Shown here piece by piece: positions 5,317 to 55,391 of a stretch of DNA of 64,000 nucleotides. Each line of letters opens with the position of its first letter. Within the stretch, counting starts at the first letter, position 1. A program made the position numbers and the translations under genes. This stretch comes from Pseudomonadota bacterium. Lineage in GTDB: Bacteria > Pseudomonadota > Alphaproteobacteria > Acetobacterales > Acetobacteraceae. The DNA lies in contig JAJXWD010000001.1 in the NCBI GenBank assembly GCA_021781835.1, positions 1 to 64,000 of the forward strand, read 5' to 3'. The notes below the pieces were generated by a model. The model did not search any database and was not told the DNA's origin. It worked only from the letters and a program-made list of their open reading frames with translations.

Positions 5317-6378
5317 ATGGCAGTCAAGTCCAAAAAAACCCTTCTGGCCGCGGCGGTTGTTCTGGTGGCTGGGCTGGGGGCGGGGGCTTACCGTTATTGG
5401 CGCGCGGCGCCCGACGCCAGCCACCTCACGCTTTATGGCAATGTCGATATACGCGAGGTCTATGCCGCGTTTTACGATTCGGGGCGCATTGACCATATGT
5501 TGGCGCAGGAGGGCGATGCGGTTCATGAAGGTGAACTGATCGCCACGCTCGACCAAAGCCGCTTCGCGGATGCGCTGGCCACCGCCAACGGCCAGGCCGC
5601 CAGCCAGCAGCAGATTCTGGCCGCGCTGCTGGCGGGATCGCGCCCGGAGCAGATTGCCCAGGCCAAGGCGCAGATGGATGCGCTGGAGGTGGTGTACCAA
5701 AACGATGCCGCCAATTACAATCGCTACGCGGCACTGGCCCCCCATGGCGCGGCCACCATTCAGCAGCGCGACGACGCCCAGGCCGCCTGGCTTAATGCCA
5801 AGCAAAATTACCAAGCCGCCAGGCAGGCTTACATATTGGCCGTCAAAGGCCCGCGCGCCGAGGATATCGCCGCCGCGCAGGCCGCCTATGATGCCGCGAA
5901 AGCCAGCGCCGCCCTGGCCGCGCAAGAGTATGACGACACCAAACTCTACGCGCCCGCGGATGGCATCATTGAGGAGCGCGTGCAGGAGCCCGGCGACATG
6001 ACCTCGCCTTCCGCGCCGGTTTATGTGATCGCGCTCACCAATCCGCTCTGGGTGCGCGCCTATGTGCCCGAGAGCGATCTGGGCCGCGTCCGGCTGGGCA
6101 TGACCGCCAGCATCAGCACCGATTCCTATCCAGGCAAGACTTATCGCGGCTGGGTGGGCTATATCTCTCCCACCGCCGAATTCACGCCCAAGACGGTCGA
6201 GACACCCGATTTGCGCGCCCAGCTCGTCTATCAGCTCCGTGTCTATGCCTGTAACGCGCAAGGCCAGTTGCAGCTTGGCATGCCCGCGACCGTGAGCATC
6301 GGCCTTGCCCAACCCCAGACAGCGGGCGCGGCACGGGGCGCGGATGCGTGCGGCGGCGCCAATGCCCCCGCCACCTGA
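5317..6378 (+). CDS. HlyD-family membrane fusion protein (YbhG-like)
   Basis: ORF 353 aa; single N-terminal TM, biotinyl-lipoyl-like halves and long coiled coil (QAKAQMDALEVVYQNDAANYNRYAALAPHGAATIQQRDDAQ). Confidence 0.88.
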   Translation: MAVKSKKTLLAAAVVLVAGLGAGAYRYWRAAPDASHLTLYGNVDIREVYAAFYDSGRIDHMLAQEGDAVHEGELIATLDQSRFADALATANGQAASQQQILAALLAGSRPEQIAQAKAQMDALEVVYQNDAANYNRYAALAPHGAATIQQRDDAQAAWLNAKQNYQAARQAYILAVKGPRAEDIAAAQAAYDAAKASAALAAQEYDDTKLYAPADGIIEERVQEPGDMTSPSAPVYVIALTNPLWVRAYVPESDLGRVRLGMTASISTDSYPGKTYRGWVGYISPTAEFTPKTVETPDLRAQLVYQLRVYACNAQGQLQLGMPATVSIGLAQPQTAGAARGADACGGANAPAT

Positions 6379-8128
6379 AGACGCGCCCAAAGCGCTGGTG
6401 CTGGAGGGGGTCACGCGCCGCTTCCGGGTGGCCAGACGTGTGGTGACCGCGCTTGAGGGGGTGAGCGCGCAAACCTCGCCCGGCCTGGTGACCGGACTGA
6501 TTGGCCCAGACGGCGCGGGCAAGACCACGCTGATGCGGCTCATCGCCGGGCTGCTCCGGCCTGATGACGGCAAGATCGGCGTTTTTGGGACCGATGTGAG
6601 CACCGCGCCGCTCGAGGTGCAGGGCATGATCTCTTACATGCCACAGCGTTTCGGGCTTTATGAAGACCTCAGCGTACAGGAGAATCTCGACCTCTACGCC
6701 GATTTGCAGGGCGTGCCTGTGGCCGCGCGCCCTGGCCGCTATGCCGAGCTTTTGCACATGACCGGCATGCAGCCCTTCACCACGCGCCTGGCGGGCCGGC
6801 TCTCGGGCGGCATGAAGCAGAAATTGGGCCTGGCCTGCACGCTCATCCGCCCGCCCCGGCTCTTGCTGCTCGATGAGCCGACCGTTGGCGTCGATCCGGT
6901 TTCACGCCGGGAATTATGGCAGATCGTCGATCACCTCGTGCGCGGGGCCGGCATGAGCGTGCTGCTCTCCACCGCCTATCTCGACGAGGCGGAGCGCTGC
7001 GACGAGGTGCTGCTGCTGCATGAGGGGCAGTTGATCGGCACTGGCAAGCCGGGGGATTTCACCCAGGCGATGGCCGGGCGAAGCTTTTTGGCCCGTGCCG
7101 GGGGCACGCCCAAGCGCGCGCTGCAAACGGCGCTTGCCGCCACGCCAGGCGTGACGGATGCGCTGATTCAGGGCGAAGCCGTGCGCCTGGTGCTGAATGC
7201 CGGCGTGGCGCCGCAGACGATTCAGCCTCCCGGCATCGCGGGCCTCACGCTCGCGCCCGTCGCGCCGCGGTTCGAGGACCGGTTTGTCGATCTCTTGCGC
7301 GCCAAAACAGGCATCCAGGCCCTGATTACGCCAGCACCGCCAGCCGCCGCGCCAGCATCGCAAGCAGCCGCCATCGAGGTTGACCGCCTGACCAAACGCT
7401 TCGGCGCCTTCGCGGCGGTCGATGACATCAGCTTCCGCGTAAAACGGGGCGAGATCTTTGGCCTGCTGGGAGCCAATGGCGCCGGCAAATCCACCACTTT
7501 CCGCATGTTATGCGGCCTGTTGCCCGCCACCAGCGGAAGGCTGCGGGTGGATGGGTTTGATCTGCGCGCCGCCGCCGCCACCGCGCGCGGCAGGCTTGGC
7601 TATATGGCGCAAAAATTCTCGCTTTATGGCGATCTCAGCGTGCTCCAGAATCTGCGCTTCTTCGCCGCCGCCTACGGGCTGCGCGGCGCGCGGCGCGCTC
7701 AGCGCATCGACTGGGCGCTCAGTGAATTCGAACTGCGCGATTACGCCGACGCCACCAGCCGCGATTTGCCGCTGGGCTTCAAGCAGCGCATGGCGCTGGC
7801 CTGCGCGCTCATGCATGAGCCCGACGTGCTGTTTCTCGATGAACCAACCTCCGGCGTCGACCCTCTGGCGCGGCGCGAATTCTGGCGGCGCATCAATGCC
7901 CTGGCGGACCAGGGCGTAACCGTGCTGGTGACCACCCATTTCATGGATGAGGCGGAATATTGCGACCATCTGGTCATCATGGCGCAGGGGCGGATTTTGG
8001 CGGCGGGCACATCGGAGGATCTCAAATCGGCCGCCCGCACGGCCGAACTGCCCGCGCCAACCATGGAGGACGCCTTTGTTGCCCTGATTACGGCCGCTGA
8101 CGCCAAACAAACAGGCCACGCGGCATGA
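6362..8128 (+). CDS. ABC transporter ATP-binding protein with two fused ATPase domains (YbhF-like)
   Basis: Two Walker A (GPDGAGKTTL, GANGAGKSTT) and two LSGGMKQK/LPLGFKQR-LDEPT sets; ORF opens at 6305 but the likely start is 6344 or 6362, overlapping the HlyD stop. Confidence 0.9.
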   Translation: MPPPPEDAPKALVLEGVTRRFRVARRVVTALEGVSAQTSPGLVTGLIGPDGAGKTTLMRLIAGLLRPDDGKIGVFGTDVSTAPLEVQGMISYMPQRFGLYEDLSVQENLDLYADLQGVPVAARPGRYAELLHMTGMQPFTTRLAGRLSGGMKQKLGLACTLIRPPRLLLLDEPTVGVDPVSRRELWQIVDHLVRGAGMSVLLSTAYLDEAERCDEVLLLHEGQLIGTGKPGDFTQAMAGRSFLARAGGTPKRALQTALAATPGVTDALIQGEAVRLVLNAGVAPQTIQPPGIAGLTLAPVAPRFEDRFVDLLRAKTGIQALITPAPPAAAPASQAAAIEVDRLTKRFGAFAAVDDISFRVKRGEIFGLLGANGAGKSTTFRMLCGLLPATSGRLRVDGFDLRAAAATARGRLGYMAQKFSLYGDLSVLQNLRFFAAAYGLRGARRAQRIDWALSEFELRDYADATSRDLPLGFKQRMALACALMHEPDVLFLDEPTSGVDPLARREFWRRINALADQGVTVLVTTHFMDEAEYCDHLVIMAQGRILAAGTSEDLKSAARTAELPAPTMEDAFVALITAADAKQTGHAA

Positions 8129-9246
8129 GCGCGATGCTGATGCGCCTGCGTGGCCTGGTGCGCAAGGAGACACTGCAAATCCTGCGCGATCCTTCCTCCA
8201 TCGCCATCGCCTTCATTCTGCCCACGGTGCTGCTGCTGCTGTTCGGCTATGGCGTGTCGCTCGATGCCCGCCATGTCGGGCTGGGGCTGGTGGTTGACGC
8301 CCCCAGCGCCGCCGCCACCAGCTTCACCGCGAAATTTCGCCATTCGCCCTATTTCACGCCCCATGATTTCGCCGCCGAACCCGCCGCCGAGACGGCCATG
8401 AAGGATGGCGATATCGATGGCTTTATCTGGCTGCAAGGCGATTTCGCCCGTCAGCTCGCCGCGGGCCAGAGCCCGGCCATTGGCCTTTTTGTTGATGGCA
8501 TCGACGCCAACAATGCCCGGCTGATCGAGAATTACGTAACGCAAAGCTGGGCGGATTGGGTGGCGCAGCAGGCCGCGCTGGCGGGCGTCGCCAATCCGGA
8601 TCCCATCGATCTCGAACCGCGAATCTGGTTCAACCCCGCCGTCAGCAGCCGCGATTATCTGGTGCCGGGGCTCATTGCCGTGATCATGACCCTTACCGGC
8701 GCGCTGCTCACCGCGCTGGTCATCGCGCGGGAATGGGAGCGCGGCACCATGGAGGCGCTGATGGTCACCACTGTGAGCATGCATGAGATATTGATCTCCA
8801 AGATCATCCCCTATTTCCTGCTCGGCATGGGGGGGATGGTGGTCTCGGTGCTGATCGCGACTTGGCTGTTCGGCGTGCCGCTGCTGGGCTCGCTCATCGT
8901 GCTGGGGCTGGCCTCGTCGTTGTTCATGCTCGCTTCGCTCGGCATGGGGCTGCTCATTTCCACCATCGCCAAAAACCAGTTTGTCGCCGGGCAGATCGCC
9001 ATCATCACCACTTTCCTGCCAGCCTTCATTCTCTCAGGATTCATTTTCGATATTTCCTCCATGCCCGCGCCCATTCAGCTGCTCACCCATGTCGTCGCGG
9101 CGCGCTATTTCGTGGCCATTTTGCAAAGCCTGTTTCTGGCCGGCACGGTGTGGTCCGTCATCCTGCCCAATCTGTTCGCCCTGCTGGCCATGGCGGTGGT
9201 GTTTCTGGGGCTGGCCCGGCTGGCCGCGCGCAAGAGGCTCGACTGA
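8125..9246 (+). CDS. ABC-2 type permease (YbhS-like)
   Basis: ORF 373 aa; RKETLQILRDPSSIAIAFILPTVLLLLFGYGVSLD; ATGA overlap with upstream ATPase. Confidence 0.9.
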   Translation: MSAMLMRLRGLVRKETLQILRDPSSIAIAFILPTVLLLLFGYGVSLDARHVGLGLVVDAPSAAATSFTAKFRHSPYFTPHDFAAEPAAETAMKDGDIDGFIWLQGDFARQLAAGQSPAIGLFVDGIDANNARLIENYVTQSWADWVAQQAALAGVANPDPIDLEPRIWFNPAVSSRDYLVPGLIAVIMTLTGALLTALVIAREWERGTMEALMVTTVSMHEILISKIIPYFLLGMGGMVVSVLIATWLFGVPLLGSLIVLGLASSLFMLASLGMGLLISTIAKNQFVAGQIAIITTFLPAFILSGFIFDISSMPAPIQLLTHVVAARYFVAILQSLFLAGTVWSVILPNLFALLAMAVVFLGLARLAARKRLD

Positions 9247-9249
9247 ACC

Positions 9250-10359
9250 ATGCTGGCCCGTCTGCTCGCTTTGGTCATCAAGGAATTTCTCGCCATATTG
9301 CGCGATGGCAAAAGCCGCATGGTGCTGATCGGCCCGCCGCTCATCCAGCTTGTCGTATTCGGCTATGCCGCCAGTTTCGACCTCAATCACGTGCCCTTCG
9401 CGGTTTACGACCAGGATCAAACCGCCCTCTCACGCGATCTGGTGGCCGATTTCGCAGGCGCGCCCAGTTTCCAGCAAGTCGCGGTATTGCATAGCCCTGA
9501 GCGCATCAGGCAGCTCATTGATTCACGTGCCGTCGAGATGGTGCTCGACATCGACCCGCGTTATGGGCGCGATCTGCTGCTTGGCCAGCCAGCGCCGGTG
9601 CAAATCATCGTCGATGGCCGCAACTCCAACACCGCCCTGCTGATTTTGGGCTATGCCAGCGACATCATCACCTCGGCCAGCGAAAGCTGGGCCGCCACCC
9701 ATGGTGGCATGGCCCCGCCCGCGCGGCTCGAGCCCCGCGCGCTCTATAACCCCACGCTCGACTCACATTGGTTCATCATTCCTGGCATCGTGGCACTGCT
9801 CACCCAGGTGGTCACGCTGCTGGTGGTGGGGTTGTCGGTCGCGCGGGAACGCGAGGCCGGCACGTTCGACCAGACCCTCGTTACGCCGCTCAGGCCCCTC
9901 GACATTGTGCTGGGCAAAAGCCTGCCGGGCCTGATCATCGGCCTCGTTGAAGGCAGTGTCATCATTTTGGCCACGCATTTCTGGTTCGGCGTGCCGCTGC
10001 TGGGTTCGCTGGTCTTGCTCTATATGGGGCTGTTTTTGTTCATCGCCGCGGTCACCGGCATCGGGCTGATGATCTCCTCGCTCGCCGCCACGCAGCAACA
10101 GGCGCTGTTGGGCGCCTTCTTGTTCATGGTGCCGTCCATCATTCTCTCGGGCTTCGCGACACCCATCGCCAACATGCCCCCCCTTGTGCAAGACCTGACC
10201 CTCATCAACCCCATGCGCTATGCGCTGGTGGTGATACGTGAAAGCTTCCTCGAGCACCCCAGTCTCGCCACGCTGCTGCCCCAGTTCGGCGCCATGACCA
10301 CGCTTGCGCTCATCAGCCTCATCGCGGCGGGCTGGCTGTTCCGCAAGCGTGTGGTTTAG
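9250..10359 (+). CDS. ABC-2 type permease (YbhR-like)
   Basis: ORF 369 aa; [48 protein letters not shown]. Confidence 0.9.
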
Positions 10360-48290: not shown

Positions 48291-49658
48291 ATGACAGAGG
48301 TGGAACCAAAAACGGGAATGGCGTTGGTGACCGAACGGCAAAAATTGGCGGCAGAAGAAGCGGGCGAAGTCTGGCTGGATGTTTCGCGGTTGTTGTTTCA
48401 GATTTTTCGCGGGCGGTTGACCGGCATCGACCGGGTGGAAATCGCCTATGCCGAGCAAATGCTGGCGCTGGCGCCCGAGCGGGTGCGGTTTGTCGCGTTT
48501 GATTATTGGCGCGGGCGGTTCAGGCGGCTCAACCAGCGGCTGGTCACGGAAATGATCGGCGAACTGGGCCCGGCCTGGGCGCGGGGCGAGATGCGCGCGC
48601 TGGGGCGGCGGGCCTTGGGGGAACTGGCGCGGAGCCAGCTTCTGGCCCCTGCCCTGGCCCGCCAGAGCGGCGGCGCGCGGCCGGTTTATGTCAATGTCTC
48701 TACCCATCCGCTGCAATGCATCAAGCCTGTCGGGCGGTTGTTGACGGGCACCGGGGCGCTGTTCGTGCCGCTGGTGCATGATTTGATCCCGCTAGAGCTG
48801 CCGGAATATGTGCCCAGCGCCTGGGCGGGGGATTTGCGCCGGCGGCTGGCAACCATTGATGCTTATGCCGATGGCGTGATCGCCAATTCGCAGGCCACAG
48901 CAGAGGCGCTGCGCCCTTATATGCCCCTGATGCCCCTCGCCGCCCTGCCGCTCGGCATAAACCCGCGCGCGCCGGGCATGGTGCCCGCGGAGGAGCGGCC
49001 TTATTTTGTCATGCTCGGCACGATCGAGCCGCGCAAGAACCACCTGCTCATTTTGCAGCTGTGGCGCCAGATGGTGGAGGAAATGGGCGAGCGGGCACCA
49101 CGGCTTTATGTGATCGGCCAGCGAGGGTGGGATAATGAGCAGGTCATCGACCTGCTGGAACGCTCGCGCCTGTTGCGGGGCCATGTCATCGAGACCGGCA
49201 TGATCCCGGATGGTGAGATGGCGGCGCGGGTAAAGGGCGCGCGGGCATTGCTCATGCCCTCGTTCGCCGAGGGGTACGGGCTGCCCGTGGCCGAGGCGCT
49301 GGCCATGGGCGTGCCGGTGCTGTGCAGCGACATTGCCGCCCACCGCGAGGTGGGACAGGCCGTGCCGGACTATCTCAACCCCGTGGACGGGCTGGGGTGG
49401 CGGGCCATGATTGACGCCTATGCCACGCCGGGAAGCCCGGCCCGCGCGGCGCAGCTGGCCCGGCTTGGCACTTGGCGGGCGCCGGACTGGCGCGCGCATG
49501 TGGCGGGGGCGCTCGCGTTTATCGGCCAGCTCACACCCCGGCGGGCAGAGGCTCAGTCCAGCTGGTCGCGCACCATGTTGGCCACCAGCATGGCCAGCAC
49601 CCAGAGGATGAAACCCGCCACCGCGGTTTCCAGCATGACCAGCCAACGCACCGGATAG
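48291..49658 (+). CDS. Glycosyltransferase (GT4-like) of the capsule cluster
   Basis: ORF 455 aa; MLGTIEPRKNHLLILQLWRQM; LLMPSFAEGYGLPVAEALAMGVPVLCSDIAAHREV; C-terminal ~35 codons are antisense to the next gene. Confidence 0.9.
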   Translation: MTEVEPKTGMALVTERQKLAAEEAGEVWLDVSRLLFQIFRGRLTGIDRVEIAYAEQMLALAPERVRFVAFDYWRGRFRRLNQRLVTEMIGELGPAWARGEMRALGRRALGELARSQLLAPALARQSGGARPVYVNVSTHPLQCIKPVGRLLTGTGALFVPLVHDLIPLELPEYVPSAWAGDLRRRLATIDAYADGVIANSQATAEALRPYMPLMPLAALPLGINPRAPGMVPAEERPYFVMLGTIEPRKNHLLILQLWRQMVEEMGERAPRLYVIGQRGWDNEQVIDLLERSRLLRGHVIETGMIPDGEMAARVKGARALLMPSFAEGYGLPVAEALAMGVPVLCSDIAAHREVGQAVPDYLNPVDGLGWRAMIDAYATPGSPARAAQLARLGTWRAPDWRAHVAGALAFIGQLTPRRAEAQSSWSRTMLATSMASTQRMKPATAVSSMTSQRTG

Positions 49659-50728
49659 ATCGAGGAACGAGGCACCAAGGGCTGCACGAAGCTCTCGAGG
49701 TAGAGGGAGCGTTCATCGGCCTGGTTGCGGGCGTTTTGCAGGGCTTGGAGGTCGGCGGCGTAAAGCTGCTGGTCGAGCGTTTCGGTGGTGGTGAGGGCGT
49801 CATAGCCGCTCATCACGCTGGCCAGGCTTTGCGGCCCGCCAGGGGCCGCGGCCAGGCGGGCGCTGAGATCATCCGCCTCGCGCTGCTCGGCATTGATGCG
49901 CGAGGTGAGGATTTGCACCTGGGGAGACTGATCGGTTTGGCCCTGGGCGCGCAGGGCGGCGAGTTGGGCTTCATCCTGCGCGAGGGTGAGCAGCACCGAA
50001 CCGCCAATGCCGCTTTGCTGCTGGGCGGTGAGCTCGGGGAACAGCACGGCGTAGCGGTTGCGGTACGCGGCCAGGGCGGCCTGGTCGGCCAGCAAGGTGG
50101 CGCGGGCGGCGTTGGCGGTTTGGGTGGCGTAGGAAAGCGCGTTGGCGCGGGCGGCGCGCGACATGCGGTCAACCAGGCTCTGCGCGCCTTGCAGGATTTG
50201 CGCCGCGAGGCGGGCGGAATCTTGCGGCGAGAAGGCGCGCACGGTGACGGTGATGATGCCCGATGACAAATCCAGGCTCGGACGCACCATGCGCCGCCAA
50301 TAGAGAAGCTGGCGCTCAGGGGGCAGATGGCTGCCCATGCGCGCCCAGAAATCCCCGCGCGGGGCGGCGAAAAACTGGTTGAGCGAGAGGCTGGGCGGCA
50401 GATCGGCCAGGGCTTGCGGGCTTTCGATATATTGCACCACCACCTGCGAATCCTCGACCAGCGCCAGCATGGGGTTGAAACCCGACAGCGCGCTGCTCAC
50501 GCTGGCGGGGGCGGCGCTTTGGGGCATTTGCTCGCGCACCACGAATTTGGTGGTGGTGACGTACTGGTCGGCCGCGAAGCCGTATTCGTAGAGGCCGGCC
50601 AGCGCCGTGGGCAACGCCACCAGCGCCAGAAACGAGGCCAGCCGCGCGCGCCGGCGCAGGTTTGGCCATGCAAACTTGGCGGGGAGTGGGCGGGCTTCGT
50701 GGCGGGGGAAAATGGGCAGGGTGTCCAT
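49553..50728 (-). CDS. kpsE: Capsule polysaccharide export inner-membrane protein, KpsE/PCP family
   Basis: ORF 391 aa; N-terminal TM then AADQYVTTTKFVVREQM, central coiled coil, C-terminal TM WLVMLETAVAGFILWVLAMLVANMVRDQ. Confidence 0.88.
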   Translation of the reverse strand: MDTLPIFPRHEARPLPAKFAWPNLRRRARLASFLALVALPTALAGLYEYGFAADQYVTTTKFVVREQMPQSAAPASVSSALSGFNPMLALVEDSQVVVQYIESPQALADLPPSLSLNQFFAAPRGDFWARMGSHLPPERQLLYWRRMVRPSLDLSSGIITVTVRAFSPQDSARLAAQILQGAQSLVDRMSRAARANALSYATQTANAARATLLADQAALAAYRNRYAVLFPELTAQQQSGIGGSVLLTLAQDEAQLAALRAQGQTDQSPQVQILTSRINAEQREADDLSARLAAAPGGPQSLASVMSGYDALTTTETLDQQLYAADLQALQNARNQADERSLYLESFVQPLVPRSSIYPVRWLVMLETAVAGFILWVLAMLVANMVRDQLD

Positions 50729-50739
50729 GTTGTCTCTCT

Positions 50740-51414
50740 TCAGGGCGCGCCGGTGGGGGCGCCGAGCAGCAGGGCGCGGTGACGGGCGATGGCGCTGTCC
50801 AGCTCATCGAACAATTCGAGCCGGCCGCCATGCAGCACGGCGCCCATGTCGCACCAGGCGCGCAACGTGCCTTCATCGTGCGAGACGATGATGACATCGG
50901 ACTGGGCGGCGCGGGCCTCGAAGGCTTCGAGGCATTTGCGGCGAAAACGGGCATCGCCCACGGCGGTTACCTCGTCGATCAAATATAGATCGAAGCGGAT
51001 GGCGAGGCAGGCGCCAAAGGCGAGGCGCGCCATCATGCCCGAGGAGTAGGTCTCGACGGGGGTGCGGAAATAACCGCCAAGCTCGGCGAAACGCTCGACA
51101 TAATCGAGGGTTTCGGCCTCGTTGGCGTTATAGATGCGGGCCAGGAAGCGGATATTTTCGCGCCCCGTGAGATGGGGGTGAAAGGTGCCGCCAAAACCAA
51201 GCGGGAAGCTGACCCGGTGGGAGCGCGAGAGGCGCCCGCGATCGAGCGGCTCGACCCCCGCGATGAGCCGCACCAGGGTGGATTTGCCCGCGCCGTTGGC
51301 GCCGAAAATGCCAATGGAGCGGCCAGATGGCAGGTCGAGCGAGACATGGTCGAGAATGACCCGCCGCTCATGCGCTGTGCGGTAGGATTTGCAGGCATCG
51401 CGCAGGGTGATCAT
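50740..51414 (-). CDS. kpsT: Capsule polysaccharide ABC transporter ATP-binding protein
   Basis: ORF 224 aa; GIFGANGAGKSTLVRLIAGVEPLDRGRLSRSHRVSFPLGFGGTFHPHLTGRENIRFLARIY; YSSGMMARLAFG. Confidence 0.94.
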   Translation of the reverse strand: MITLRDACKSYRTAHERRVILDHVSLDLPSGRSIGIFGANGAGKSTLVRLIAGVEPLDRGRLSRSHRVSFPLGFGGTFHPHLTGRENIRFLARIYNANEAETLDYVERFAELGGYFRTPVETYSSGMMARLAFGACLAIRFDLYLIDEVTAVGDARFRRKCLEAFEARAAQSDVIIVSHDEGTLRAWCDMGAVLHGGRLELFDELDSAIARHRALLLGAPTGAP

Positions 51415-52985
51415 GACACCGGCCGCAGGCGCCGGCGCAGGCCAAGCTCGAGCCCCAGACCCAAAACCAGCGCGCCGCCCACCCAGGCCAGCAGATAGGG
51501 CAAATTGAGCCAGATGGGCCTGTATTCGGGGTAGAAGCCCGCGCGGAACAGCTCGACACCCTGGAGCACCGGATTCCAGACCAGCGCCGCGCGCAGCTGG
51601 TCGGGCATGGTGAGGGGGGTGTAATAAATGCCAGAGGCGAAATAAAGCAGGCGGATCACGGCGTTGAACACCGTCTCCCAGCCATGGAAGTAATTGACCA
51701 GCACCAGATTGACCGCCCCCACCCCGGCGCCGAGCAGGGCCAGCAGCGCGAAGGCCAGCAAGGCGGTGAGCGGCGCGGCCGGCATGGTGCGGTACCCCAT
51801 CAGCCCAAAAGCGCCAAACACCAGCAGGGCCACGGCGATTTCGGTCATGAACTGCAAAAACAGGCGGGCGGCCATGATGTCGGTGGTGCGCAGGCCGGGC
51901 AGCAGCAGCAGGGCGCCGGCGGCGTTGCGGGCGTGCATCACCTCATCCGCCACATGCGAAAACAGCAGATAGGGCAGCAGGCCGGTGCAGTAAAACTCGA
52001 ACAGGCTGTGACCCAGCGGCGGCGGGGCGAGATTGACATAGGCGAACATGACGCCAAGCGTGAGCAGATGGGAAATGGGCTCGGCCACCGCCCAGAGATA
52101 GCCGAGCACGGCGCGCGAGTGGCGCGTGCGCATCTCGCGGAGCGCCAGCGCCCAGATAATGCGCCCGCGCTCGGCCAAGCGGGCCGCCAGCGGCGGGCGC
52201 GGCCGGGGCGGCGGCAGACGGCGGAGCGGTTTGGCGGGCGGCTCCCAGCCGGGGGGCGCGTGCGCCACCGCCACCCCGATGCGCGCCGCCAGCGCCGCGC
52301 AATGGGCCCGGTAGGCCGAGATTTCGGGCGCCAGCGCGCAGGCGCGTTCGGCTTCGGCGAAGGCGGCGGGCAGATTGCCCAGCATCTCATGCACGCCGCT
52401 CAAGGCGCGGGCCAGATGCGGGTCTTCCGGCTTGTGGGCCATGGCTTCGGTGAGCACGGCCAGGGCATCGCCATGGCAGGCGCGGGCATTGAGCAGGGCG
52501 GCGCGCTGGAGGGCATAGCCGAGATTGTCGGGCGCGTGTCTCGCGGCCTCGGCGGCGGCGGCGAGCGCGCGCTCGAGCCGGCCCTGATGCTCGTTGCAGG
52601 TGGCCAGCATGGACCAGGCCGCGGCGTTTTCGGGCATATGGGCCAGGGCGGCCAGCAGCGGGGCCTCGGCGGCGGCCGGGCGGGCGCAGGCAAACAGCAC
52701 ATGGGCGTGGTGAAGCTGATATTCGGGCTGGCCGGGGGCATGAGCGGCGGCGGCGCGGGCCAAGGGCTCGGCCTCTTCCGCCTGGCCAGCGGCGACGAGA
52801 AAACCGCTGAGCCCGCGCAGCAGCCGGGCATTGCCAGGCGCCAGCGCCAACCCCTGGCGCAGCAGCGCGATGGCCGCCGCTCCCTCGCCCCCATGGTGGA
52901 GGATTTCGGCGGTGGCGGCCAGGGCCGCGACATTGCCGGCATCGCGCTCCAAGGCGGCCAGGGCTTCGGCGGCGCTCAGGGGCAT
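51411..52985 (-). CDS. Fusion of N-terminal tetratricopeptide repeats and C-terminal KpsM-like ABC-2 permease
   Basis: TPR-like units over aa ~1-230, Pro-rich linker GWEPPAKPLRRLPPPRPRPPLAARL, then LALREMRTRHSRAVLGYLWAVAEPISHLLTLGVMFAYV ... FYCTGLLPYLLFSHVADEVMHA. Confidence 0.88.
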   Translation of the reverse strand: MPLSAAEALAALERDAGNVAALAATAEILHHGGEGAAAIALLRQGLALAPGNARLLRGLSGFLVAAGQAEEAEPLARAAAAHAPGQPEYQLHHAHVLFACARPAAAEAPLLAALAHMPENAAAWSMLATCNEHQGRLERALAAAAEAARHAPDNLGYALQRAALLNARACHGDALAVLTEAMAHKPEDPHLARALSGVHEMLGNLPAAFAEAERACALAPEISAYRAHCAALAARIGVAVAHAPPGWEPPAKPLRRLPPPRPRPPLAARLAERGRIIWALALREMRTRHSRAVLGYLWAVAEPISHLLTLGVMFAYVNLAPPPLGHSLFEFYCTGLLPYLLFSHVADEVMHARNAAGALLLLPGLRTTDIMAARLFLQFMTEIAVALLVFGAFGLMGYRTMPAAPLTALLAFALLALLGAGVGAVNLVLVNYFHGWETVFNAVIRLLYFASGIYYTPLTMPDQLRAALVWNPVLQGVELFRAGFYPEYRPIWLNLPYLLAWVGGALVLGLGLELGLRRRLRPVS

Positions 52986-52986
52986 A

Positions 52987-54036
52987 TCAATAAGGCGCCC
53001 CGAAATTGCGCGGCACGGCGGCCATGCTGCCAAGCCCGGTGATGGCGGAGAGGATCTTGGCGGCATCGGCCACCGGCGCGTCGCTCACATACAGCACATC
53101 GCCCGGGTGCAGGGTGAAGCGGCTGGCGGTGAAGAAGCTGGCGGGGTCGCTCAGATCGAGCTGATAGACAATCCGGGCGGCGCCGGGGCGGTAGAGAAAC
53201 ACCCCGCGCGGGGCGGCCAGGCTGTCCTGCAGGCCCGCCACCTCGGCGAGGGCGGTGAGCAGGGAGAGTTGCGGAGCATCGTAAGGGAACAGGCCGGGAT
53301 GGTTGACGGCGCCAAAAGCGTAGAATTGCAGGCGGCGGGGCAGCAGGGTCACCTCATCACCGGGCGAGAGGGGAATGTCATCGGTGCCGTCGGCGAGCAG
53401 GGTGGCAAGGGGCAATTCGGCCGTGCCGGTGCCGCGGCGCAGGCGGACCAATGTTTCATCGGCCGTGCCGCGCGCGCCGCCCCCCTCGGCGATGAGGGCG
53501 CTCAAGGTAAGTGACCCGGCCAGCGGGTAGAGGCCGGGCTTGGCGGCATCCCCCGCGAGCACCACATTGTCGGCGGTGGGGGTGGCATCGAGCACGCTGG
53601 CTTGGATTTGATGGCCTTGGGCGGCGAAATTGGCCGTGATGCGGCGCGAGAGGGACAGAGCGCTCTCGCCCGCCACGTGCAAAACGCCAAGATAGGGCAA
53701 GGCCAGATCGCCGCCGGCGCCGACCCGCAGGCTGGTTTGCAGGGCGGGCGGGGCAAGCAGGGTCTGGCCGGTGGGGTTGGCCTCCCAGAGGGTGATCCGC
53801 ACCTCATCGCCCGGGGCGAGCCTGCCTGGGGGCCGCGCGGGCGGCAAGGCCGCGAAGCCTTGCGCGGGGGCGGGCGCCGGGGGCGGGTTGGGGGTGGTCA
53901 TGTCCAGCCGGACCAGCCGGTAGCCGGAGGCTTGCAGCACCGCACCGGTACGCGGGCCGCTCTCGGGCAGGCTGGCGCAGGCGCCAAGCCCGAGCAGCAA
54001 CGCCAATGCCGCGCCAGGCGCTATTGGGCGGCGCAT
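52987..54036 (-). CDS. Outer-membrane polysaccharide export protein (Wza/KpsD family, SLBB)
   Basis: Lipobox LLGLGACASLPE; LAPGDEVRITLWEAN; VVLAGDAAKPGLYPLAGSLTLSALIAEGGG; TLHPGDVLYVSDAP. Confidence 0.9.
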   Translation of the reverse strand: MRRPIAPGAALALLLGLGACASLPESGPRTGAVLQASGYRLVRLDMTTPNPPPAPAPAQGFAALPPARPPGRLAPGDEVRITLWEANPTGQTLLAPPALQTSLRVGAGGDLALPYLGVLHVAGESALSLSRRITANFAAQGHQIQASVLDATPTADNVVLAGDAAKPGLYPLAGSLTLSALIAEGGGARGTADETLVRLRRGTGTAELPLATLLADGTDDIPLSPGDEVTLLPRRLQFYAFGAVNHPGLFPYDAPQLSLLTALAEVAGLQDSLAAPRGVFLYRPGAARIVYQLDLSDPASFFTASRFTLHPGDVLYVSDAPVADAAKILSAITGLGSMAAVPRNFGAPY

Positions 54037-55391
54037 GCCACGAGCTCGCGCTTTTGCACGGAGAGGAAATTAGCCTCGAGATAGATGGCGGCGTTGGTGG
54101 CGGTGTTGTAGCGGAGATCCGGCACCGCCGCCGCGCGCCCAGGGCTTTGGATGCGCGTGGCCAGCTCGGCGAAATTGCCGATGTCGAAAAACTCGATGAG
54201 GTCGGGATGGTAGCGGGCAAAAGCCCGGAAGGCCGCGGTGCGCGAGGCGATGACGCGCGTGCCCATTTCGAGCGCGATGGAGATGGGGCCGGAACTGGCC
54301 TGGCCGACTTCTAGATAGGGGAAGACCGCGACATCGCACTGGGCGGTGGCGGCGAAAAAATCATCGTCGGACAGGGCACCCATGAAATGCACGCGTTCAT
54401 GGAGGGTGTTGGGATGGTCGTTGAGGAGGGCGGTGAGCTCGGCGCCACTGGGGGCGAGGCGAAGGCCGCTTTCTTTCAAAACCTCGAGCGGGGATTGGCC
54501 GATATGAGCGGTGGAGAGCAGCTTGCGGATATAAGGGTCGAGCGGCTCCTCGCGCCGGATGCCCTGGGGGTGCAGGCCGCCGAAAATGAGCAAATGATAG
54601 TCGGGGGGCAGGAATTCGAGCGCGCGGATGGCGGTGTCGAACCCTTTATAGGCGGAGAGAAAGCCGAACGTGCCGATGAATTTGACATTGGCGGGCAGAC
54701 CGGAAAATGGCGCCGGGACGGCGCGGCCGGTGCGCGCGCGCAGGCCGCGCGCGGCTTCGGGAGAGATGAAGGAGAGCGGGTGGTGATGCACGCTGCGCAG
54801 GGCGAATAAATCCTGCATCATGCGCTGGTCGCGCCTGGTGTGGACGATGACCGACACCGGCTTGTGCGCCTGGAGGCTGCGCAGCAGACCCTGAATGCCG
54901 CGGCTGAGCCGGCCGGCGCGCGTGGCCTCGGACAAAACGCGCCCCGCCCCGCTCACATGCCCGCGCGCCAGCAGGCGGCCCACCGTGTCCCACGGCATGT
55001 CCTCATTGAGGAGGATGGTGTGGAACGTGACCGACAGAGCCGGCGCGGCCTTGGCGAGGCGGGCGAAACGGCGGGTGATCTGGGCGACGGTGCGCCCGAG
55101 CGTGCCGTGCTCGAGCTGGATGTTGACACAATCAAACCCATGGAGCTGAGCGGCGATGTCCTTGATGTGGGCATCGGCCAGTTTTTGGATGCGGCGGTGG
55201 CGGCCGCGCAGGAGGTACTGGTCGAGGTCGAAGATGGTGACATCGACGAACGGGGCCAGTTGTTTTTCGAGGGCGCGGGTATAGCCGGCGATGCCGCACA
55301 GCTCGTCATAGGTGCTGACGATGGCGAGCCTGGGGCGACGCGGCGCGGACAGGGCGGGCGGAACATGGTAGGAGGAGAGCGTGTCAGGCAT
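54021..55391 (-). CDS. Glycosyltransferase (GT4-like)
   Basis: ORF 456 aa; RLAIVSTYDELCGIAGYTRALEKQLAPFVDVTIFDLDQ; FIGTFGFLSAYKGFDTAIRALEFLPPDYHLLIFGG. Confidence 0.87.
   Translation of the reverse strand: MPDTLSSYHVPPALSAPRRPRLAIVSTYDELCGIAGYTRALEKQLAPFVDVTIFDLDQYLLRGRHRRIQKLADAHIKDIAAQLHGFDCVNIQLEHGTLGRTVAQITRRFARLAKAAPALSVTFHTILLNEDMPWDTVGRLLARGHVSGAGRVLSEATRAGRLSRGIQGLLRSLQAHKPVSVIVHTRRDQRMMQDLFALRSVHHHPLSFISPEAARGLRARTGRAVPAPFSGLPANVKFIGTFGFLSAYKGFDTAIRALEFLPPDYHLLIFGGLHPQGIRREEPLDPYIRKLLSTAHIGQSPLEVLKESGLRLAPSGAELTALLNDHPNTLHERVHFMGALSDDDFFAATAQCDVAVFPYLEVGQASSGPISIALEMGTRVIASRTAAFRAFARYHPDLIEFFDIGNFAELATRIQSPGRAAAVPDLRYNTATNAAIYLEANFLSVQKRELVACAAQ

Follow-up and report, generated by a model that had tools for sequence, protein, structure and literature searches.

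A rare TPR-KpsM fusion in a capsule-export operon of the Acetobacteraceae and the possible role of its TPR arm

Why would the permease of a capsule exporter carry a TPR domain of its own? This question is raised by a gene (P0001) in a 64,000-nucleotide stretch of DNA from a bacterium of the Acetobacteraceae (contig JAJXWD010000001.1 of assembly GCA_021781835.1), the whole of which is called the window below. In the exporter, two KpsM subunits act together with KpsT, enclosed by a cage of KpsE, and to our knowledge it has not been resolved how a cytosolic capsule polymerase hands its product over to the KpsMT exporter. An initial annotation of the window described a TPR domain joined to a KpsM-type permease, and proposed that the TPR may dock glycosyltransferases or the lipid-linked glycan to the exporter. 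Here we consider whether the fusion is real, how widely it occurs, which genes accompany it and what its TPR domain might bind.

The gene cluster and the fused protein

The cluster is read on the minus strand in the order GT54021 (the glycosyltransferase gene at 54021), an OPX/KpsD-like gene, TPR-KpsM, kpsT and kpsE, with overlaps and gaps of about 16 bases at most. The features, including a convergent neighbor on the plus strand, are as follows in window coordinates.

54021..55391, minus strand: GT-B glycosyltransferase (GT54021), at the head of the operon and overlapping kpsD; weak GT4 Pfam match, GT-B fold
52987..54036, minus strand: outer-membrane polysaccharide export protein (OPX), KpsD/Wza-like, Poly_export and SLBB (Pfam/NCBIfam)
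51411..52985, minus strand: TPR-KpsM fusion gene, 524 aa in a single frame without interruption
52278..52973, minus strand: N-terminal TPR domain of the fusion, seven helical hairpins, residues 5-236 (Pfam, AlphaFold2, Foldseek); predicted to be cytosolic, net acidic
52191..52277, minus strand: Pro/Arg-rich, low-confidence linker, residues 237-265, without a conserved start codon
51414..52190, minus strand: KpsM-type ABC-2 permease, residues 266-524, with interface helix 266-288 and TM helices
50740..51414, minus strand: kpsT, ATP-binding subunit (Pfam/NCBIfam), whose start overlaps the TPR-KpsM stop (ATGA)
49553..50728, minus strand: kpsE, BexC/CtrB/KpsE family, PCP-3 (TIGR01010, E=4e-55)
48291..49658, plus strand: GT4 glycosyltransferase (GT48291), convergent with kpsE, conserved within the genus

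Because its start codon lies one base beyond the TGA of kpsD and its stop codon overlaps the start of kpsT, the fusion gene is part of the operon, and it occupies the position between kpsT and a Wza/KpsD gene that was assigned to it at the outset. It is also the only permease of the cluster, as had been claimed. A search of the genome from which the window comes gave no second KpsM-type match, and the remaining ABC-2 matches are of other kinds.

Two further arrangements in the window are worth recording. The kpsE gene (minus) and the GT4 gene at 48291 (plus) overlap tail to tail at 49553-49658. This stop-free overlap is exactly 100 nt in 8 of 8 same-genus loci, even though the encoded proteins share only about 55-60% identity, and by comparison of these sequences it is a fixed double-coding antisense overlap. 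Elsewhere, at 5317-10359, the window encodes a membrane-fusion protein, a tandem ABC ATPase and two consecutive ABC-2 permeases, which are unrelated to the capsule cluster and which we read as a YbhGFSR-like efflux operon.

The uninterrupted frame was initially described as TPR repeats, a Pro/Arg-rich linker and a complete KpsM-type permease, and Pfam, NCBIfam and AlphaFold2 all agree with this description. In the TPR half, the Pfam models TPR_19 (E=5e-13), TPR_16, TPR_14, TPR_2 and TPR_17 score above their cut-offs within residues 20-210, and ABC2_membrane matches residues 277-485 of the permease half (E=4e-10; 39.9 bits vs a cut-off of 26.9). The best NCBIfam match of the permease half is KpsM (2e-30, residues 276-510). 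The KpsM equivalog model NF050053 (E. coli type) gives 106.5 bits and does not reach its curated cut-off of 300, so that by this score the permease is classed as homologous to E. coli-type KpsM, not as an equivalog. The closest solved permease in a phmmer search is Schlegelella thermodepolymerans KpsM (PDB 8TSH chain C, 2e-26).

The AlphaFold2 model of the fusion has 14 helices arranged as seven TPR hairpins over residues 5-236 (pLDDT about 90-97), followed by an unstructured low-confidence stretch (~247-260), the interface helix (266-288) and the TM helices. The pTM is 0.50, and the position of the arm relative to the permease is not predicted. Foldseek aligns the permease half to 8TSL chain C with a TM score of 0.88 over 257 columns (29% identity), and the KpsM fold of interface helix and TM helices is present in the model. 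The TPR half, matched separately, resembles superhelical TPRs such as O-GlcNAc transferase (OGT) and designed TPRs. No signal peptide was shown on the fused arm. A 551-aa entry in the list of open reading frames begins at 53066, with an upstream ATG that lies within kpsD, but homologues align from the Met at 52985, which is the better start and the one originally preferred.

Distribution and origin of the fusion

The same architecture was found at 23 loci in 22 genomes from three families, and three additional loci are cut by contig ends. Same-genus fusions have permeases that are 90% (G007) or 62-65% identical to that of the window, and they sit in a complete syntenic cluster. In the remaining two families, fused genomes number 9 of 75 and 5 of 248. 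A class-wide sample of 385 genomes includes a KpsM relative in 18, with the fusion in four from three families, and a phylum-wide sample of 399 genomes includes a KpsM relative in 70, only three of which are fused. Thus, the TPR-KpsM architecture is rare among KpsM-bearing genomes, which disposes of the concern that it might prove common. Pfam confirmed both TPR and permease domains in nine diverged fusions, and the permease matches of two (L150 and L056) fall slightly under the gathering score. Among PLSDB plasmids, no match extended across most of the fusion, and a whole-protein search of genome contigs returned only generic TPR matches, in cyanobacteria and an acidobacterium.

This recurrence bears on whether the fusion is an artefact, either of two genes merged by a sequencing frameshift or of an internal start that yields an ordinary permease, both of which the initial annotation had raised. 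Such a doubt can draw on the generic character of TPR homology and on how common potential start codons are in the DNA of the window. However, the identical frame is present in 22 genomes, and dN/dS is below 1 over both the TPR and the linker. In the comparison of the window with its 90%-identical relative G007, the TPR has a value of 0.30, the linker 0.28 and the permease 0.17, which points to purifying selection on the TPR and permease halves alike. The fusion is therefore not a product of chance, and a frameshift is rejected by its conservation across many species. An internal start is rejected for want of a usable start codon: none is conserved in the linker when fused genes are compared, and one fused gene (G016:C230, locus L029) has no ATG, GTG or TTG from about residue 205 to a Met within the interface helix. 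We regard an artefact as so improbable that it can be set aside.

A tree of 98 permease domains places 21 of 21 fused sequences in one clade (100/93 support) and the 77 unfused sequences outside it. Only one change between fused and unfused states is needed, and none of 500 shuffles gave so low a number. Permeases within the fused clade diverge to identities as low as about 33%. This pattern indicates a single fusion origin among the sampled sequences, with loss in no sampled descendant.

Several other KpsM loci with long frames (G539, G503, G689, G1007 and others) were considered as further fusions and rejected, as they carry no TPR. That of G1007, from elsewhere in the phylum (L147:8231-10093), encodes in one frame a KpsM-like permease with a long non-TPR N-terminal extension containing repeated DDRIAEWRKRR-type segments. 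KpsM may have acquired N-terminal additions on more than one occasion. A separate TPR gene lies beside unfused KpsM at one of 43 loci (L171), so that supply of a TPR in trans by a neighboring gene is not the rule for unfused KpsM. The gene in question (L171:3304-6840, from G651) is a 1179-aa open frame whose best-scoring TPR repeats are toward its C-terminal end. One genome (G016) carries two different whole TPR-KpsM cassettes (L026 and L029), each with its own glycosyltransferase.

The companion glycosyltransferase

The search for both the fusion and GT54021 covered roughly 720 distinct genomes. A homologue of GT54021 is present in 25 of 25 fused genomes when the contig-cut cases are included, and in all 22 fused genomes of the genus and two families. 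In the 385-genome class sample, the GT54021 family occurs in exactly the four fused genomes. By locus, homologues lie within about 9 kb (phmmer) of 21 of the 23 fused genes vs none of 43 unfused KpsM genes, and the two exceptions (L055 and L152) are both contig-cut and belong to genomes that have the glycosyltransferase on another contig. Three genomes that seemed to have the glycosyltransferase alone (G002, G475 and G454) were rejected as such, since each has a fused locus that a contig end interrupts; in the case of G454, the assignment is based on a surviving permease end that is 99% identical to a fused gene. The sole genome with a homologue (30% identity) and no fusion nearby is G487.

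Outside the genus, 12 of 14 fused loci have GT54021 nearby, whereas a kpsD-like gene is found at two and a GT48291-like gene at three. KpsT and KpsE are kept in all fused loci, and no gene family beyond the exporter genes and GT54021 was found in nearly all of them. Thus, the docking idea fares differently for the two glycosyltransferases of the window. For GT54021 there is circumstantial support in its full co-occurrence and its retention when other cluster genes are swapped, whereas there is none for GT48291, which most fused loci beyond the genus have not retained. The fold of GT54021 is GT-B, like that of the retaining GT4 enzymes HepE, PimA and MshA, although these are generic GT-B (GT4-like) fold matches, and a GT54021 profile matched no sequence in the PDB.

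The GT54021 family also occurs on plasmids of Pannonibacter phragmitetus (43% identity) and Rhizobium sp. (33%), directly before an unfused ABC-2 permease and ATPase. These permeases are matched by no TPR-KpsM query, and we read the permease/ATPase pairs as Wzm/Wzt-type. The loci are L218:11986-14907 (P. phragmitetus p.p-1) and L219:11935-14739 (Rhizobium sp. T1473). In the former, the glycosyltransferase is annotated as a hypothetical protein, and a methyltransferase gene and two sulfotransferase genes follow the permease and ATPase; it is possibly a sulfated-polysaccharide cluster. As the family can also neighbor a Wzm-type permease that has no fused arm, linkage of the glycosyltransferase to an exporter does not depend on the TPR, and from gene neighborhoods the family would seem to be exporter-linked in general.

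Two considerations temper the co-occurrence. First, the cassette travels as a unit and so its genes may be found together through co-inheritance; in a mirror-tree comparison, distance correlations are high for every pair of cassette genes, with no special signal between the glycosyltransferase and the TPR. Second, the fused genes form one clade and their loci are therefore not independent.

Role of the TPR arm

Our preferred reading, to which we assign a probability of about 0.5, is that TPR-KpsM proteins are a KpsM subfamily whose TPR arms hold cytosolic glycan-assembly machinery, chiefly GT54021, at the canyon entrance and so couple synthesis to export; both the binding and the coupling are what we infer. 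Each KpsM subunit would carry a cytosolic arm of seven TPR repeats, and a flexible linker would connect this arm to the interface helix where the export canyon opens. As KpsM is dimeric, every exporter, with its KpsT and its KpsE cage, would have two arms. These might hold glycan-assembly enzymes, most likely the product of the first gene of the operon (GT54021), at the canyon entrance, and chain synthesis would be coupled to export. A narrower proposal, in which the arm directly recruits a dedicated GT54021-family enzyme to the canyon mouth and a single polypeptide would link synthesis to secretion, is offered more tentatively.

In the solved KpsMT-KpsE complex, the N-terminal interface helix of KpsM is at the cytosolic face, beside the canyon entrance (PMC11041684). 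Since KpsM starts at this helix and the fusion has no signal sequence, the arm is predicted to project into the cytosol, and on the basis of the KpsM structure there should be two such arms per exporter. Recruitment by a TPR has a precedent in the Vi system, where the TPR of TviD recruits TviE (PMC9597891), and for TagF-like capsule polymerases a contact between their TPRs and the ABC transporter has been proposed (PMC5974469). Pairwise identity among the fused TPRs is 55% (0.55) at concave positions vs 37% (0.37) at convex positions, as expected for a ligand-binding TPR. In favor of docking we counted the single fused clade, purifying selection, this concave conservation, GT54021 co-occurrence and the retention of the glycosyltransferase when kpsD and GT48291 are swapped. 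Counted against it were the presence of GT54021 beside unfused exporters and, in G487, away from any nearby fusion, possible co-inheritance of the cassette and the lack of independence among loci.

The arm might instead organize the exporter, dimerizing KpsM or binding KpsT or KpsE for assembly or gating, and not recruit a glycosyltransferase. The TPR of Cps1B mediates oligomerization of that capsule polymerase (PMC5974469), and the constant presence of KpsT and KpsE in fused loci, with distances that correlate with those of the TPR (r 0.84-0.89), is consistent with this role. However, KpsT and KpsE also lie near many unfused KpsM genes (about 27-28 of 43 loci at the cut-off used) and need no TPR there, and the special companion of the fused clade is a glycosyltransferase. 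We consider an organizing role rather unlikely.

A lipid ligand was also suggested initially, and VexE provides the model: it has a TPR domain whose strongly basic groove is proposed to be a channel for the glycolipid product (PMC9597891). By analogy, the lipid-linked glycan, or just its lipid end, could be carried into the exporter along the groove of the fused TPR. Of 22 fused genomes, 18 have no member of the family PF05159 (KpsC/KpsS beta-Kdo transferases), so that the lipid end of the glycan may differ from the canonical one, as it does in Vi, but the family is missing from 10 of 29 unfused genomes as well. Moreover, the TPR halves have net charges of -5 to -19 (17 sequences measured), unlike the basic groove of VexE. 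A protein ligand is therefore favored, and this part of the original docking idea becomes improbable.

Neither KpsC nor KpsS was found in the genome of the window. Among the four fused genomes that do have PF05159 (G477, G094, G480 and G642), G477 has the gene about 20 kb away from a second KpsM, which is unfused; in G094 and G480 it is on another contig, and in G642 no more than a few kb separate it from GT54021 homologues. Most TPR-KpsM systems probably do not use the canonical poly-Kdo linker.

Lastly, the TPR could bind another cytosolic partner, such as a regulator or a modifying or sugar-nucleotide enzyme, while the glycosyltransferase is merely co-inherited and sets the polymer type. 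Cassette-wide co-inheritance would allow this, as would the occurrence of the GT54021 family beside exporters that have no TPR. Nevertheless, the exporter genes and GT54021 are the only gene families that were found in nearly all fused loci, which makes a different partner hard to favor, and we judge it about as improbable as a lipid ligand. Recruitment of glycan-assembly enzymes, with GT54021 foremost, accordingly remains the reading that we prefer.

Comparison with known systems

No described TPR-KpsM was found in the open-licence literature. The fusion is a real, rare and long-conserved KpsM subfamily, and apparently an undescribed variant of a known exporter. KpsM of S. thermodepolymerans (8TSH/8TSL) and of the E. 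coli group 2 system share with it the ABC-2 fold, the interface helix and KpsT, KpsE and OPX neighbors. However, solved KpsM is about 260-274 aa long, starts at the interface helix and has no TPR, in keeping with the initial statement that the normal protein lacks one, whereas the fusion is 524 aa long. The E. coli group 2 system also has the KpsC and KpsS that are missing from the genome of the window, and what it exports is a Kdo-linked phosphatidylglycerol glycolipid.

Other polysaccharide systems place their TPRs differently. VexE, a TPR-LPLAT protein of Vi antigen synthesis, resembles the fusion in having an N-terminal TPR and in serving a capsule that depends on an ABC exporter, but there a soluble acyltransferase carries the TPR, whose concave face is basic, whereas the TPR of the fusion is on the permease and is acidic overall. 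The C-terminal TPR of TviD gathers capsule enzymes at the membrane through its recruitment of TviE (PMC9597891), but it belongs to a membrane-associated O-acetyltransferase and not to the exporter. The TagF-like group 2 polymerases Cps1B and Cps7D likewise have a TPR in a group 2 capsule system, with a suggested transporter contact, yet there it is the polymerase that carries it and here the transporter. BcsC, PgaA and PrsT also use TPRs in polysaccharide export, but these are periplasmic and on the outer-membrane side, whereas the TPR of the fusion precedes a cytosolic interface helix and has no signal peptide.

What sets TPR-KpsM apart is that the transporter itself bears the TPR, which has persisted over long evolutionary time alongside one glycosyltransferase. 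TPR-KpsM and GT54021 thus form a concrete, testable pair for the coupling of synthesis to export, and a natural fusion of this kind could stabilize, for structural studies, a synthesis-export complex that would otherwise be transient.
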